Shown here in pieces: positions 5,559 through 11,473 of a DNA stretch of 11,891 nucleotides (position 1 is the stretch's first letter; every line of letters starts with the position of its first letter). The notes below the pieces were generated by a model. That model ran no database searches. It saw only the letters and a list, made by a program, of their open reading frames with translations, and was not told the DNA's origin. Source of the stretch: Defluviitaleaceae bacterium (GTDB taxonomy: Bacteria > Bacillota > Clostridia > Lachnospirales > WQUN01); contig WRHA01000352.1 of NCBI GenBank assembly GCA_009783395.1, positions 1-11,891 on the forward strand, written 5' to 3'. Both the position numbers and the translations under genes were made by a program.

Positions 5559-5714
5559 TTATGCGGCTGCTAATTCTGCCTGTAGGTTTAAGATGGTGGG
5601 TTCATCTAAGCCCGTTGTTTCCAGTACAACATCAGTGGATAAACCTTTCTTCAGCATGTTTTTAGCGATTTCAACAGCTTTGTCGTTTGCAATCATTTGA
5701 TTAATTTTGCTCAT
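5559..5714 (-). CDS. Stand-alone C-terminal tail of the Rpn nuclease (possible antitoxin)
   Basis: This 51-residue protein starts at ATG 5714, preceded nine bases upstream by a strong ribosome binding site (AAAGGAG, 5724-5730). An ATG nine codons earlier (5741) lies inside the tandem repeat and is less likely. The helical sequence MIANDKAVEIAKNMLKKG then LSTDVVLETTGLDEPTI matches the tail seen at the C-terminus of many Rpn-family nucleases (A..IAK.ML..G.S......TGL). It is therefore the missing end of the upstream nuclease, now in another frame. In E. coli the rpn genes are known to make small C-terminal proteins from internal starts that inhibit the full-length nuclease; an equivalent inhibitory role here is inference. 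Confidence 0.7.
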   Translation of the reverse strand: MSKINQMIANDKAVEIAKNMLKKGLSTDVVLETTGLDEPTILNLQAELAAA

Positions 5715-5732
5715 GTCAATCATCTCCTTTAA

Positions 5733-5756
5733 TTTTTTCATTTTTTCATTTTTTCA
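5733..5756. repeat. Three tandem copies of an 8-bp repeat at the nuclease/tail junction
   Basis: TTTTTTCA occurs three times without interruption (5733-5740, 5741-5748, 5749-5756); on the coding strand this is TGAAAAAA x3. The nuclease stop codon (5746-5748) lies in the second unit. Because 8 is not a multiple of 3, copy-number change alters the frame. With a single unit the coding strand would read CTG AAA AAA TTA AAG GAG ATG, joining the nuclease to the tail without a stop. Confidence 0.9.
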
Positions 5757-6387
5757 GCTTTTCTGTATCTTTTACGAATTTATCTGCAAGCGATTTAATC
5801 ATTTCTTGCATCTGTACTCGCTCGTCTTTGGTTGGTACATCTTTTGAAAGTTGGATGGATTGCTCAAATCGGGTGAATTTATCCACGCTGTTTTGCATCA
5901 TTGGCAATAGCACGATAGACATTAAATCCTGCTTGGTCAGAGATTCCCCTGCATCCAGCCGTGCCTTTATATCGGCATAAGTTTTGTCGCCGTCAAGTGC
6001 GGACATATAGAACGCTTTCACGTTATACTTTATCACACCGGCATCGAGTGTCGTTATTGTTTCCTTGATGTCCGCCGAATAAACCACGATTGTTCGCACA
6101 GGCGTTCCTGTGTTGTAATGAAGAATTGCGCCGGAAACCATAAAGCGAGCGATGTATTTTTTGTCGTAATCGGGCTGAAACTCAAAGTGCAGAAATGAGT
6201 CATCATCCGTTTTCCGTAGCCAGTCATCGGTTTTGCGCTGTATCGGAATGTTCGACAATTCCGTTCTCGCAGATGCAACAACTCGCGCATCTATTCCGAA
6301 AAATTTAACGGCGTCACCCTTGAGCAGCTCCATTATGGATTTCATTATAGTATCTTCCGATACTATTGCCGGAGGAATCCCACTCAC
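5746..6387 (-). CDS. Rpn family PD-(D/E)XK nuclease, lacking its C-terminal tail
   Basis: A 213-residue protein of the Rpn (recombination-promoting nuclease / transposase_31-like) group, magnesium-dependent DNA endonucleases, some of which act in phage defence. The catalytic core is visible: an acidic pair at D54-D55 and the FLHFEFQ strand with E69 and Q71, in place of the usual E-x-K. The GTG start at 6387 overlaps the TGA of the PIN toxin gene (GTGA), with AAAGGAG three bases upstream; an ATG at 6345 (MKSIMELL) is an alternative that keeps the whole core. The protein stops inside a tandem 8-bp repeat, and its usual tail is encoded separately downstream. Co-translation with the toxin-antitoxin pair upstream suggests one operon. 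Confidence 0.75.
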   Translation of the reverse strand: MSGIPPAIVSEDTIMKSIMELLKGDAVKFFGIDARVVASARTELSNIPIQRKTDDWLRKTDDDSFLHFEFQPDYDKKYIARFMVSGAILHYNTGTPVRTIVVYSADIKETITTLDAGVIKYNVKAFYMSALDGDKTYADIKARLDAGESLTKQDLMSIVLLPMMQNSVDKFTRFEQSIQLSKDVPTKDERVQMQEMIKSLADKFVKDTEKLKK

Positions 6388-6812
6388 TGTCTCCTTTGGG
6401 AATAAATTGTGATAAAATTCTGCGCACTGATTATTTTTGCGAACTTTAAATCGACTTGAGAAAACTCTTTGTCATTAGTAACAATGTACTCTACATCCTC
6501 TTTTTCGGCACATGTTACAACTAAAGCATCTTCAAAATCAACCATTGGCAGATTCAAGGCATTCGCGCAATCGTTGCCGTCAACAGCAATGACACCAAAC
6601 ATTTTAAGCAATTGCCTTATTGCTTGCCGCGCCGCATTGTCACCCAACCGCTTTGCCGTAACGTAATAAATGTCAGTAATGCTGCTTGCCGTGGTAAAAG
6701 CGGAAATTTCTTCTTTGGAAATCATCGCAAATATTTTTTCGGCATCCGTTGCGTTGGGTTCTCGGGAGAGGAGGAAATCCAAAATGACATTTGTATCAAC
6801 CAACACCTTCAT
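6384..6812 (-). CDS. PIN-domain toxin (VapC-like ribonuclease)
   Basis: A 142-residue PIN-domain protein, a Mg2+-dependent ribonuclease fold common in toxin-antitoxin systems. The acidic active-site residues can be placed at D6 (VDTNVI), D47 (TDIYY), D95 within DFEDAL and D114 in the TND motif. The ATG overlaps the antitoxin stop by 4 bp (ATGA type), so the pair is translationally coupled. The partner is of RelB/DinJ type and not one of the AbrB, Phd or RHH proteins most often paired with VapC. RNA target unknown. The downstream Rpn gene also overlaps it by a few bases. Confidence 0.85.
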   Translation of the reverse strand: MKVLVDTNVILDFLLSREPNATDAEKIFAMISKEEISAFTTASSITDIYYVTAKRLGDNAARQAIRQLLKMFGVIAVDGNDCANALNLPMVDFEDALVVTCAEKEDVEYIVTNDKEFSQVDLKFAKIISAQNFITIYSQRRQ

Positions 6813-7099
6813 TTTGACAAAATCCTTTCCTCGCGCTCTTTGTCCAAATCAACTTCGTGTCCGGCTAAAATGCCGCTTAATGCGATAAATGCGTCTTCTT
6901 TTTCCGCTCGCGAATTTTTTGGTGTTGCCATAGCGGGTTCATTCAACGCCAAGTCAAAAGGGATTCGCAACTGACGGCCAACTGTTTTTATATAAACATT
7001 TATCCCGGTTGAGAAAGTCATGCCCAGCTCTTTGAATACCTGTTCCGCATTTTGCTTATCGCTTTCATCTATCCGCAGAGTGTAATTCACGGTTGCCAT
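6809..7099 (-). CDS. RelB/DinJ family antitoxin
   Basis: A 96-residue antitoxin with an N-terminal ribbon-helix-helix of RelB/DinJ type: TLRIDESDKQNAEQVFKELG followed by MTFSTGINVYIKTVGRQLRIPF. The remaining about 45 residues are charged and probably wrap the toxin. It starts at ATG 7099 with an AAGGGG seven to eight bases upstream, and its stop overlaps the start of the PIN toxin. It should bind and neutralise that toxin and repress the operon, by family analogy. The gene lies 25 bp after the end of an unknown gene on the same strand, so it may share that gene's promoter. Confidence 0.85.
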   Translation of the reverse strand: MATVNYTLRIDESDKQNAEQVFKELGMTFSTGINVYIKTVGRQLRIPFDLALNEPAMATPKNSRAEKEDAFIALSGILAGHEVDLDKEREERILSK

Positions 7100-7982: not shown

Positions 7983-8012
7983 TTGCGTATCACAAAAACC
8001 GAGGCGATTTTT

Positions 8013-8285
8013 ATGGCAAAGATTCTTCCAAGTTCAGATTTGCGAAACAAGTACAATGAAATTTCAACTTTTTGTAACACATATAACGAGCCTGTTTTCA
8101 TTACGAAAAACGGCACGGGCGACCTTGTTTTACTGTCAAACACCGCTTATGAGGAATTATCGGGCCGCAGGGAACTGCATCGGTTGCTTGACGAGGGGCT
8201 TTCCGCAATGAAGGCAGGCGGCGGTCGTCCGGCCAAAGAAGTTTTCGACACCATCCAAAAGGAGTACGGATTCGATGGAGCGTAA
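8013..8285 (+). CDS. Phd/YefM family antitoxin
   Basis: A 90-residue antitoxin. The N-terminal Phd/YefM fold is clear in LPSSDLRNKYNEISTFCNTY followed by EPVFITKNGTGDLVLLSNTAYEEL. The C-terminal third, rich in charged residues up to KEYGFDGA, is the part that would bind the toxin. ATG 8013 is preferred over an upstream TTG because the family begins close to the SSDLRN segment and a GAGGCG lies just upstream. Its last codons overlap the toxin start by 11 bp. By analogy it binds the toxin and represses the shared promoter. Confidence 0.88.
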   Translation: MAKILPSSDLRNKYNEISTFCNTYNEPVFITKNGTGDLVLLSNTAYEELSGRRELHRLLDEGLSAMKAGGGRPAKEVFDTIQKEYGFDGA

Positions 8286-8598
8286 CTCGGCGTACGAAGT
8301 CATCCTCGAAACCACCGCCGTTCTTGACTTGTACGGCATTTTTGATTACATCAACGATGTTTTCAAAGCACCCGAATCGGCACAGCGTGTCTTTTCTTCA
8401 ATCAAGAAGCAAGTGCTGTCGCTTGACGTTATGCCCGCGCGCCATGCCGTCGTTAGAGATGACCCATATGCTTCCCTTGGTGTGCGGCTGATGCCGGCGG
8501 AAAATTACAATGTTTTTTACATAATTGATGATGCAAAACGCGAAGTTCGTGTAATCCGCATACTCTATAATCGCCGCGAATGGCAAAGGCTTTTGTGA
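8275..8598 (+). CDS. RelE/ParE family toxin
   Basis: A 107-residue RelE/ParE-superfamily protein. Recognisable are the N-terminal helical hairpin (DLYGIFDYINDVFKAPESAQ), the beta-sheet core (GVRLMPAENYNVFYIID) and the C-terminal RVIRILYNRREWQRLL strand-plus-helix typical of the family. RelE members cleave ribosome-bound mRNA, ParE members poison gyrase; the basic and aromatic C-terminus is compatible with an mRNA interferase, but I cannot decide. ATG 8275 has AAAAGGAG about ten bases upstream, inside the antitoxin gene. Confidence 0.85.
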   Translation: MERNSAYEVILETTAVLDLYGIFDYINDVFKAPESAQRVFSSIKKQVLSLDVMPARHAVVRDDPYASLGVRLMPAENYNVFYIIDDAKREVRVIRILYNRREWQRLL

Positions 8599-8683: not shown

Positions 8684-9660
8684 GCTATTTTTCGTTTGTA
8701 CGTTGGCGGGCATGGCTACAAGTATATTGTCGAGGAACTCCGGGAAAAAGGATATAAGAGCAAGTATGGCGGAGACATCGGCGCGAACGCCATTAAAACC
8801 CTGTTAGAAAACGAGCGGTACATCGGCGTATACACTTGGAACAAGAAACGAACAAAATATTACGGCGAGTGGGCCGGCGGTGCAGACAACCCAAACTGCG
8901 TCCGGCGGGAGTATATGTTAAGCGGTCTTATCCGTTGCGAGAAGTGCGGAGCGGCTTTCCACGGCGTTACCCGGACAAGCGGGAAAGGCTACAAGACCCC
9001 ATACTATGTATGCACAGCCAAGCACAACAAAAAATCATGTGACGCTCAAAATATTAACGCGAACGAATTGGAAACCTTAGTGGTTACGATTTTGAAGCAT
9101 GAACTTCTCAATCCCGAATTTATCGAGCGGACAGCGACAGGATTATTGAAACGGCTTCGGCCGCCGCCGGCGACAAAAACGAAAAAACCAACTCCATAAA
9201 TAAAGAGTTGGTAGATGTTACCACTAAGGCAAATAATTTATTGAACGCCCTTATGGCCGGGCTTGATTCTGAAATGGCACGCGAAAAATTAAAGGAATTG
9301 GAAAACCAAAAACAAGCCTTGACTGAAACCCTGCGGACGCTCGAACGCTCCGCCGACAAAGAAATCAACCGCGAGGAACTTATCGCCCTGCTCAACAAGG
9401 ACACGGAAGCGTTTATCAACGAACCCGAGAGAACCCGCGAAATCGTGCAAAAATATGTATCCAAAATAACATTGTCCGACACAACCGTAGAAATTACGGA
9501 TATGTCGGACAAGTACGTCAGTAATTCAACTTGCGGAGGCACGCAATACCTCTTGTTTACGCTCTGGTTCTCCGATGAAAACGGCTGTCGCGTCATTTCG
9601 CAGACGGCAATCACCATTCAAAATCCTATCGTGCCAATTTGTAAAGGCAATATTGATTAA
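8684..9660 (+). pseudogene. Decayed large serine recombinase (integrase) relic
   Basis: The C-terminal two thirds of a large serine recombinase. From about 8684 the frame reads AIFRLYVGGHGYKYIVEELR and on to LLENERYIGVYTWNK, the family's recombinase domain, then the zinc ribbon (CEKCGAAFHG ... CTAKHNKKSCDA), in one frame up to 9199. The coiled-coil and C-terminal beta part (from about IIETASAAAG, then KLKELENQKQALTETLRTLE) is in another frame and ends at 9660. The frame changes near 9140-9150, equivalent to one base lost or two gained. The N-terminal resolvase domain with the catalytic serine is absent: upstream is the toxin gene. It is therefore not functional. Its tail overlaps the converging antitoxin gene by 35 bp. 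Confidence 0.85.
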
Positions 9661-9886
9661 GGCTTACGCCCTGTTCCTTTGCAATTTGCACTAATGTCTT
9701 ATGCAAGTCCTTTGGTATACGCAACGAAATATTGCCGCTGTAAACGCGCTCGGATTTGTATTCTTCCCATGAAGTGGATTCGTCCGAGCCTTCTTCTTCG
9801 TATTCGGCTATCATTTGTATATCAATTTCATCGGGCGCGACTTCGGGAATGTTTTGAATTTTTGCTTGTAATTGTTCTGCTGTCAT
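9626..9886 (-). CDS. Ribbon-helix-helix antitoxin (HicB C-terminal-like)
   Basis: An 86-residue protein with an acidic N-terminal half (EEEGSDESTSWEE region, residues 30-42) and a C-terminal ribbon-helix-helix: GNISLRIPKDLHKTLVQIAK then SLNQYCLYKLAR. This is the DNA-binding segment found at the end of HicB-type antitoxins, here without the HicB RNase-H-like part; the acidic half probably contacts the toxin. ATG 9886 has AAAGGGTG about seven bases upstream. It starts 5 bp after the stop of the RelE-type toxin, so the order is toxin first, antitoxin second, the reverse of most type II pairs. Confidence 0.78.
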   Translation of the reverse strand: MTAEQLQAKIQNIPEVAPDEIDIQMIAEYEEEGSDESTSWEEYKSERVYSGNISLRIPKDLHKTLVQIAKEQGVSLNQYCLYKLAR

Positions 9887-9891
9887 AAAAA

Positions 9892-10143
9892 TCACCCTTT
9901 CTTGTAAGCGTCCCCGCGTGGATAAATATTTTTAACATGAATATTGTTTGTCCCCGGCGTATGAATGAAAATTATTCTGTATGGCGGTTTTTTGAGTCTG
10001 TATTCGTCTTTGCGACCTTGCAATTTAACAATATCGCCGTCAAAGGTTGCCAATCCGTCAATGGCGGCTTTTAGACGGCTATACGTTTTCTTGTCGCATT
10101 TATCCAAATACTTTTTGGCTTGCTTGCTTATCGTGATGTTCAT
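9892..10143 (-). CDS. RelE family toxin
   Basis: An 83-residue RelE-superfamily protein, short as usual for the family. Visible are the helix KYLDKCDKKTYSRLKAAIDG, the strand KLQGRKDEYRLKKPPYRIIF with its conserved arginines, and the closing HVKNIYPRGDAYKKG, where PRGDAYK is typical. By family it would be a ribosome-dependent mRNA endonuclease, but this is inferred. ATG 10143 has AGGTGGAG close upstream; the longer open frame toward 10323 crosses the promoter and operator and is rejected. It is the first gene of a two-gene operon with the ribbon-helix-helix antitoxin. Confidence 0.85.
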   Translation of the reverse strand: MNITISKQAKKYLDKCDKKTYSRLKAAIDGLATFDGDIVKLQGRKDEYRLKKPPYRIIFIHTPGTNNIHVKNIYPRGDAYKKG

Positions 10144-10163
10144 TTGCTCCACCTCATGCGAAT

Positions 10164-10198
10164 ATGGTAGCATATGCAATAGCATATGGCAATGTAAA
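10164..10198 (-). promoter_or_regulatory. Promoter with repeated operator of the RelE-RHH operon
   Basis: On the minus strand TTTACA (10193-10198), an 18-bp spacer and TATGCT (10169-10174) form a plausible promoter. The direct repeat TAGCATATG occurs at 10168-10176 and 10180-10188, twelve bases apart, each with a CATATG palindrome, covering the -10 and the spacer. This is where a ribbon-helix-helix antitoxin would be expected to bind. Confidence 0.55.
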
Positions 10199-10222
10199 AA
10201 ATGAAAGCTATCTGCGATTTCC

Positions 10223-10250
10223 TTGATTTTTGCTATATTTCGAGTATAAT
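10223..10250 (+). promoter_or_regulatory. Promoter of the type IIG gene
   Basis: TTGATT (10223-10228), 16-bp spacer, consensus TATAAT (10245-10250), about 38 bp before the ATG at 10289. A GGGGGA ribosome binding site (about 10278-10283) follows. It is divergent from the RelE operon promoter. Confidence 0.6.
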
Positions 10251-10288
10251 TACAATACGATAACAAATTTCGGCAGTGGGGGAATAAA

Positions 10289-11473
10289 ATGCTTTCGTGG
10301 GACACCATACAAGCCAATGCCATTGCATTTTCAAAGAAATGGCAGAAAGCAAAAAACGAGGAAGCCGAAGCGCAAGGGTTTCAGCTTGATTTTTTGTGCG
10401 TTTTTGGTGTGGACGAGCCTATGGAAGTCGGAAATTTTGAATACAAAGTACCGCTTCTGGGGGGAAGAACGGGCTATATTGATTACGTTTGGAAAAGCAA
10501 AATCGCCATCGAAATGAAAAGTCGCGGAAAAAGCCTTGATGAAGCGTTCGCACAACTCAAAAATTATATGCAGAACCTACCGAGTGATGAAATTCCCGAT
10601 TTATGGATGGTATGTGATTTTGAAAGTATTCGTCTTTGCCGACGCTCCACCAATGAAATCTGGAATTTCAAAACAAAGGATTTGCGAAAACATATCAAAC
10701 GCTTTGCAGACATCGCGGGTTACGAAACCGAGCGTGACGCGGGCGTACAAATTGAGGTAAACGTAAAAGCCGCCGAAAAAATGGCGAAACTCTATGACGC
10801 ACTGAAAGACCACGGCTATGAAGGTCAAGATTTAGAGGTCTATTTGGTGCGTTTATTATTTTGCTTGTTTGCGGGCGATACAGGCATTTTCCCAAAGGGC
10901 AATTTCTACAATTACATAAAAAATTCAAAAGAGGACGGTAGCGACCTTTCGCACCGCTTGTCCGATTTATTTGAAGTGCTGAATATGCCGGACGAAATCC
11001 GCGCAAAGAAAAAATTGCTTTCTGATGAGTTGAAAAAGTTCCGCTATATAAATGGTGGGCTGTTCGAGCGGCACTTGCCTCGCGCCGACTTTGACGCAAA
11101 AACACGCAAAATATTGTTAGAGTGCCGCGAAAATTTCGATTGGTCTACAATCAGCCCGGCGATTTTCGGTGCGATGTTCCAAGGGGTTATGGATAAAACC
11201 AAGCGTAGGGAACTTGGGGCGCATTACACAAGCGAGGACAACATCGAAAAACTGATTAACCCTCTTTTCATGGACGGGCTTTGGAAGGAATTTGACCGTG
11301 CAAAAACAGACCCTGTCGCGCTTGACCGTTTTCACGATAAAATAGCGCGGTTAAAATTTTTAGAAATAACTCGACCGAGATGGATACAATTTAAGGAAAC
11401 CTCGCCTTTGCCGCGTAAGGGGTGTGCAAATTACCCAAACTGCCGTATAATAAGGACATTCCTTTGGGATTGA
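10289..11473 (+). pseudogene. Truncated MmeI-like type IIG restriction-modification enzyme
   Basis: The first about 358 residues match the N-terminal half of MmeI-type enzymes, single polypeptides that cut DNA and methylate one strand. The nuclease motif D-X9-E-X-K is intact: D65, E75, K77 (YIDYVWKS and IAIEMKSRGK). The helical connector follows (DLEVYLVRLLFCLFAGDTGI, NGGLFERHLPRADFD), then RRELGAHYTSEDNIEKLINP, which in the family leads to LKFLDPACGxGNF, the first SAM-binding motif. Here LKFL is present at residues 355-358 or so, then the sequence switches to an unrelated 36-residue tail (EITRPRWIQF on) and stops at 11473. The methyltransferase and target-recognition domains are absent from all three plus frames. 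The start ATG 10289 has a GGGGGA six bases upstream. Without the SAM domain it should not work as a normal type IIG enzyme. Confidence 0.8.

Follow-up and report, generated by a model that had tools for sequence, protein, structure and literature searches.

The closest described systems are the rpn genes of E. coli. RpnA-E each combine a nuclease with a small C-terminal domain that has an internal Shine-Dalgarno sequence (SD) and start of its own (Zhong et al. 2023, PMC10327210). According to the accessible part of that source, translation from the internal start yields RpnS, the C-terminal domain alone, which binds and blocks the toxic full-length protein RpnL. Mutating K240, E241 and M244 of RpnA abolishes RpnS, and in an rpn gene of C. 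difficile RpnS is likewise translated from an internal start. The tail carries the oligomerisation helices of Rpn. Full-length Rpn is toxic, and phage protection has been found for one Rpn. Some E. coli strains also have separate rpnS genes (ypaA/rpnES downstream of rpnE, and a second rpnCS downstream of rpnC), and the separate copy has been gained and lost, including by fusion (PMC10327210).

A comparison of another kind is offered by mutL of Salmonella, which is alike in having a few short tandem units inside the gene, the number of which sets function. A change in the number of its 6-bp repeats converts the allele both ways; as described in the accessible part of the source, conversion was shown in a mutator strain and went undetected in two non-mutator strains (PMC2955026).

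The locus reported here lies in a stretch of 11,891 nucleotides (contig WRHA01000352.1; the window) from a Defluviitaleaceae bacterium, the genome of which is metagenome-assembled, consists of 360 contigs and is 71.5% complete. Like E. coli RpnA-E, it has a nuclease and a small C-terminal domain with an internal SD and start. In contrast to them, an 8-bp array that is out of frame interrupts full-length RpnL at the hinge. Where RpnA has K240, E241 and M244, the window reads K-E-M-I-D-M; the SD lies on the K-E codons in both, and the start in the window follows five residues after K. As with the separate rpnS genes, the tail is a small protein of its own, but the separate genes described are second copies beside an rpn gene, whereas the only tail beside the nuclease in the window is the original one (PMC10327210). 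And whereas conversion has been demonstrated for mutL, our locus is known in one state alone. The features that we refer to below are these:

6809..7099, minus strand: RelB/DinJ antitoxin; its stop overlaps the start of the PIN gene
6384..6812, minus strand: PIN-domain toxin, ending in a stop that overlaps the GTG start of the nuclease (GTGA)
5746..6387, minus strand: Rpn-family nuclease ORF, 213 aa, GTG start at 6387, TGA in unit 2 of the array; shorter than the fused homologues
5733..5756, minus strand: (TGAAAAAA)x3 array at the RpnL/RpnS hinge (direct read, TRF, shuffles)
5715..5735, minus strand: ribosome-binding site of the tail, AAATTAAAGGAGATGATTGAC, with an anti-SD duplex energy of -9.3
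5559..5714, minus strand: C-terminal tail, RpnS-like, 51 aa, conserved internal start ATG 5714
5559..5741, minus strand: longer tail ORF of 60 aa, ATG 5741 overlapping a TGA of the array, weak SD (-0.8)

The nuclease, the tail and its internal start

The nuclease ORF is closed by a TGA at 5748-5746, where unit 2 of the array starts. Because of this in-frame stop the full-length L protein is not encoded. Neither the nuclease piece nor the tail piece contains a second stop or a frameshift, and the nuclease keeps D55, E69 and Q71, which match the presumed catalytic D...ExQ of the PD-(D/E)XK nuclease core. Hence, the nuclease is no gross wreck.

Model TIGR01784 did not match the window pieces alone; it matched 30 of 44 aligned family members (E no higher than 0.1, the best being 2.9e-8), and the RpnA model NF007361 matched 9 of the same 44 (best 0.0021). 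Pfam scans of the nuclease, the tail and members of the family returned no useful family, although many relatives carry the precomputed label PF27070 in a protein collection. PADLOC returned nothing for the nuclease and two fused relatives. A profile of the fused family gave a weak match to the RpnA chain 7th0_A in the tail part (E 0.024). An NCBIfam match of the tail ORF to Wmk, also seen for 28 of the 44 members, was rejected, as it covers 28 residues only and lies far below the cut-off.

The 51-aa tail starts at ATG 5714 behind AAAGGAG. The initial annotation of this DNA had mentioned neither this start nor the overlapping stop and start codons in the array. A mark of Rpn L/S genes, a ribosome-binding site and a start inside the gene ahead of the C-terminal domain, is present in the window. 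In 89 relatives the column of ATG 5714 holds Met 73 times, Val 15 times and Leu once (78 were matched by pattern, giving 63 Met, 14 Val and 1 Leu, and 11 by eye, giving 10 Met and 1 Val); the sole Val start codon seen as DNA is GTG (L005/L041). From 37 loci we recovered nine junctions, seven of them distinct since two pairs have identical upstream bases, and at all nine the native SD pairs better than synonymous recodings do on average (200 recodings). Depending on the junction, a fraction of 0.01 to 0.285 of the recodings reaches the strength of the native SD, and the SD of the window tail lies within their range of -5.9 to -13.9.

Since the internal SD and start are conserved in relatives, the array did not create the tail ORF; the tail is older. 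With a conserved ribosome-binding site and start of its own, the tail is expected at any unit number, and a free RpnS-like protein should still be made from ATG 5714. The 60-aa ORF would be translated only by reinitiation. There is also a record of a separate 51-residue protein with the very sequence of the tail, placed on a second contig (12,760 bases); this suggests that the tail is split there too, although the contig may be a repeat assembly of the same sample or the same reads. When stand-alone tails of about this length were sought, a single protein turned up, identical to the window tail, a weak result given that small ORFs often go uncalled.

The octamer array

The array consists of three perfect units of TGAAAAAA, identical to one another, at 5756-5733 of the minus strand; they lie where the nuclease ends, as the initial annotation had it, with the stop TGA in unit 2. 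TRF reports a period of 8 and 3.6 copies. The claim that two or more units always bring a TGA is right as well: by direct read, every unit after the first gives a TGA in the frame of the nuclease. The array is at the same time a chain of stop/start overlaps (ATGA at 5749-5746 and at 5741-5738), and it contains three A6 runs. It is an out-of-frame tandem repeat inside coding sequence, one of the features by which phase-variable (contingency) loci are recognised.

An array of this kind is beyond chance. In 200 dinucleotide shuffles of the window there was no match to it, even with up to 3 mismatches allowed. We scanned 61 contigs of the same genome for repeats: the window, the 20 smallest contigs and, apart from the window, the 40 largest, together 457 kb of 1.72 Mb (27%). 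An 8-bp unit repeated at least three times occurs in them only once, namely at the hinge, compared with none in five simulations of the same 457 kb under an order-4 Markov model. Within this 27% of the genome, units of 5-12 bp form no other array that shifts the frame. The remaining exact arrays of such units keep it, their units being 9 bp long in one array and 12 bp long in two. Arrays of 4-bp units number five, against 6.8 expected.

Outside the window the array was sought at two levels. As an exact 24-mer it occurs once in 61 genomes (its own, 9 of the genus, 27 of the family and 24 of the order), in the window, and is absent from the 60 others. Among relatives read as DNA, which come no closer to the window than about 60% protein identity, seven have a readable hinge (L036-L039, L041, L042, L045); none of the seven has the array, and their hinges are plain coding sequence. 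Where related rpn genes read as DNA are broken, the breaks lie elsewhere, with no 5-12 bp unit repeated three times at them. No one-unit allele of the locus was seen either. The working copy-number switch that the initial annotation had proposed does not find support in these results. Its further statement that phase-variable control of an Rpn nuclease is undescribed agrees with our literature search, which was poor in subscription journals and found no report of phase-variable Rpn or of an on-off switch at the L/S boundary.

The exact 24-mer is also found in seven stretches of a viral collection. Some further arrays lie near other rpn-like genes. In the relative L011 (1037-1060) the 8-bp unit ATCAAAAT stands three times, apparently outside coding sequence; some 120 bases separate it from the matched part of another rpn-like gene downstream. 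An 8-bp array is present at the orphan-tail locus L153. In-frame 12-bp units, three in each case, lie in or near the tails of rpn-like genes in L011 (from 103) and L024 (from 2288). They are similar to the repeats described for Rpn in the accessible part of PMC10327210, which are in-frame 12-bp units, that is, four-residue repeats, inside the tail helix.

Fusion and constraint across the family

A search with the nuclease alone gave 116 proteins, 97 of them at least 240 aa long, and a profile built from 44 of these gave 423, of which the best 120 were used. From the matches listed we assembled a comparison set of 146 distinct proteins that includes the window and excludes the stand-alone tail. 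By alignment, 134 of the 146 continue for 30 residues or more beyond the hinge. In P0068 and P0116 this continuation is unrelated sequence, so that a related tail is fused across the hinge in 132 of the 146 family proteins among the matches listed. Fused homologues, on which the idea of a fused form in the initial annotation depends, therefore do exist. Ten of the 146 stop before the hinge or are fragments, some of them perhaps cut by contig ends, and P0094 diverges or ends about ten residues beyond it. The window protein is the only one among the 146 matches listed to end exactly at the hinge. The hinge residues LKKLKE occur without a stop in P0006, P0008, P0012 and P0017, and the window has these residues on either side of its break. 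The genome of the window carries a second rpn-like gene, on contig 97, where the contig end cuts it; this gene too is open across the hinge. Because fusion is the rule in the family, the split in the window is a derived state of its lineage.

According to the initial annotation, copy number decides whether nuclease and tail are fused. One part of this stands: the array does separate the nuclease from a usually fused tail, as a derived condition. Copy number does not decide the set of products in the way that was implied, since the tail has its own conserved start and is expected in both states; only full-length RpnL would change.

Several relatives are broken by other means, judged by eye. L160 (contig 59 of genome G018) has a frameshift in mid-gene that leaves the nuclease and the C-terminal half in different frames, L162 (the same gene as L041) is broken near its 5' end, L043 is a fragment of an rpn gene, and in L040 the tail has been replaced. 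Free-standing Rpn tail ORFs occur as well (L143, L146 and L147, with no nuclease seen directly upstream); L143 and L146 come from the same genus as the window, and all three are possible orphan RpnS antitoxins. With both broken relatives and stand-alone tails at hand, rpn breakage and free tails are not unusual here. One open fused relative of the window gene, L045, lies on an IMG/VR contig of 98.8 kb that is classed as viral; it is the sole family relative in the viral collection.

For constraint on the nuclease and the tail we compared 84 sequences, namely the window and 83 proteins of at least 240 aa from the nuclease search, leaving out P0068, with its replaced tail, and more distant or short proteins. 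The tests are modest, draw on overlapping data and use protein sequences only. The window departs from 4 of 47 near-invariant columns and P0087 from 4 of 48, the highest values against a median of 1. With 10 residues unique to one member the window takes third rank among the 84 sequences. On the tree, 4 of the 27 changes on its terminal branch fall in columns at least 93% conserved, compared with 52 of 1603 on the other tips (Fisher p 0.012), and it ranks second of 64 tips (each with at least 12 changes) for changes in conserved columns. The BLOSUM severity of its changes is ordinary (rank 18 of 64). Conservation of the tail relative to the nuclease is the highest of 40 in the window, the other 39 being the fused relatives P0002-P0040. 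These are mild signs that the nuclease of the window may be under weaker constraint while the tail is still constrained.

Interpretation and neighbouring genes

We think that the locus is probably an Rpn gene-within-gene that has lost full-length RpnL in one lineage and still expresses RpnS. Its ancestor was fused, like most of its relatives. Lysine codons and a ribosome-binding site make the hinge rich in A, and at this place an 8-bp unit would have been multiplied in tandem, for which strand slippage is the simplest route. The array stop at the end of the nuclease prevents full-length RpnL from being made by normal decoding. The tail, in contrast, keeps a strong SD and an ATG, a start that is conserved among relatives, and would presumably supply a free RpnS-like protein. 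The outcome would be an "off" allele: a nuclease without the C-terminal oligomerisation helices, together with surplus antitoxin. Loss of units could restore the fusion, which is physically possible, although nothing shows that this route is used. That the units are identical is compatible with a dead array and no less with one that is recent or still moves. Suppose the array does not move. In that case, a gene-within-gene would fail safely, since breaking it at the hinge abolishes the toxin without harming the antitoxin, which is a tolerable route to losing the system.

One could also argue that the array is a phase-variable switch, where slippage of the octamer toggles full-length RpnL while RpnS is always made, so that cells differ in a toxic defence nuclease. 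The three units are indeed perfect and out of frame, and they sit precisely where nuclease and tail meet. Salmonella mutL, with its 6-bp repeats, is a precedent: short tandem arrays convert alleles there, which makes switching conceivable here too (PMC2955026). Given the toxicity of full-length Rpn and the phage protection by one Rpn, an off state could pay (PMC10327210). Nevertheless, we hold a switch to be rather unlikely. Three units make a short array, and even for mutL conversion went undetected in the two non-mutator strains described (PMC2955026). The array is found in 0 of 60 other genomes and 0 of 7 hinges of relatives, the genome sample (27%) holds no other frame-shifting 5-12 bp array, constraint on the nuclease seems relaxed, and the separate 51-aa tail record on the 12,760-base contig suggests a split there too. 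A more far-reaching version, in which the A-rich hinge with its RpnS start is a slip-prone site that now serves as an octamer contingency switch, turning toxic Rpn off and leaving the antitoxin on, strikes us as quite improbable. If the array does move, the L/S boundary of an anti-phage toxin-antitoxin gene would carry a genetic on/off switch.

The pieces might instead work as two genes, a truncated nuclease that is active without its tail and a separate antitoxin tail, coupled by the stop/start overlaps. That both pieces are open, the ATGA overlaps and the strong SD would suit such a pair, as would the separate rpnS genes of E. coli strains (PMC10327210) and stand-alone tail ORFs such as those of L143 and L146, relatives within the genus. 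However, in both E. coli examples described the separate rpnS lies downstream of an rpn that has its own RpnS, and the oligomerisation helices reside in the tail and are missing from the truncated nuclease (PMC10327210). The nuclease also departs from the family at conserved columns, and its exact end at the hinge is unique among the 146 matches listed, with P0094 ending about ten residues later. Two working genes are a minor possibility, not a negligible one. Far less probable is that some full-length protein arises from the three-unit allele after all, through recoding or through slippage of the transcript in the A-runs. The array does offer three A6 runs, but A6 is a short run for efficient slippage, and the site is not a conserved slippery one because the relatives read as DNA have no array. 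Equally remote, in our judgement, is an assembly artefact. The genome is fragmented and incomplete, and assemblers err at repeats, but the 24 bp of the array are shorter than a usual sequencing read, and the tail is separate on the second, longer contig too, though this may be the same reads reassembled. An alternative code in which TGA is read as a residue was rejected, as the tail lies in another frame and the pieces would not be fused.

Upstream of the nuclease, relB, pin and rpn look like one operon because each ORF overlaps the next by a few bases. By eye, the genes upstream of rpn in six relatives (L036-L039, L041, L045) are not evidently RelB-PIN, so the operon with that pair looks local.

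Further toxin-antitoxin-like pairs lie in the window. One, at 7983-8598, comprises Phd/YefM (just below the Pfam cut-off) and ParE; in the other, at 9626-10323, a HicB-like protein stands beside an ORF (9892-10323) that has no Pfam match and is RelE-like by eye. At 8696-9660 a serine recombinase is represented by its C-terminal part, with matches to the recombinase and zinc ribbon domains at 8696-9199, and is seemingly continued in another frame; lacking the catalytic N-terminus, it looks by eye like a decayed mobile-element gene. The N-terminal part of an MmeI-like restriction-modification protein, at 10289-11473, seemingly ends in unrelated sequence and is apparently truncated.
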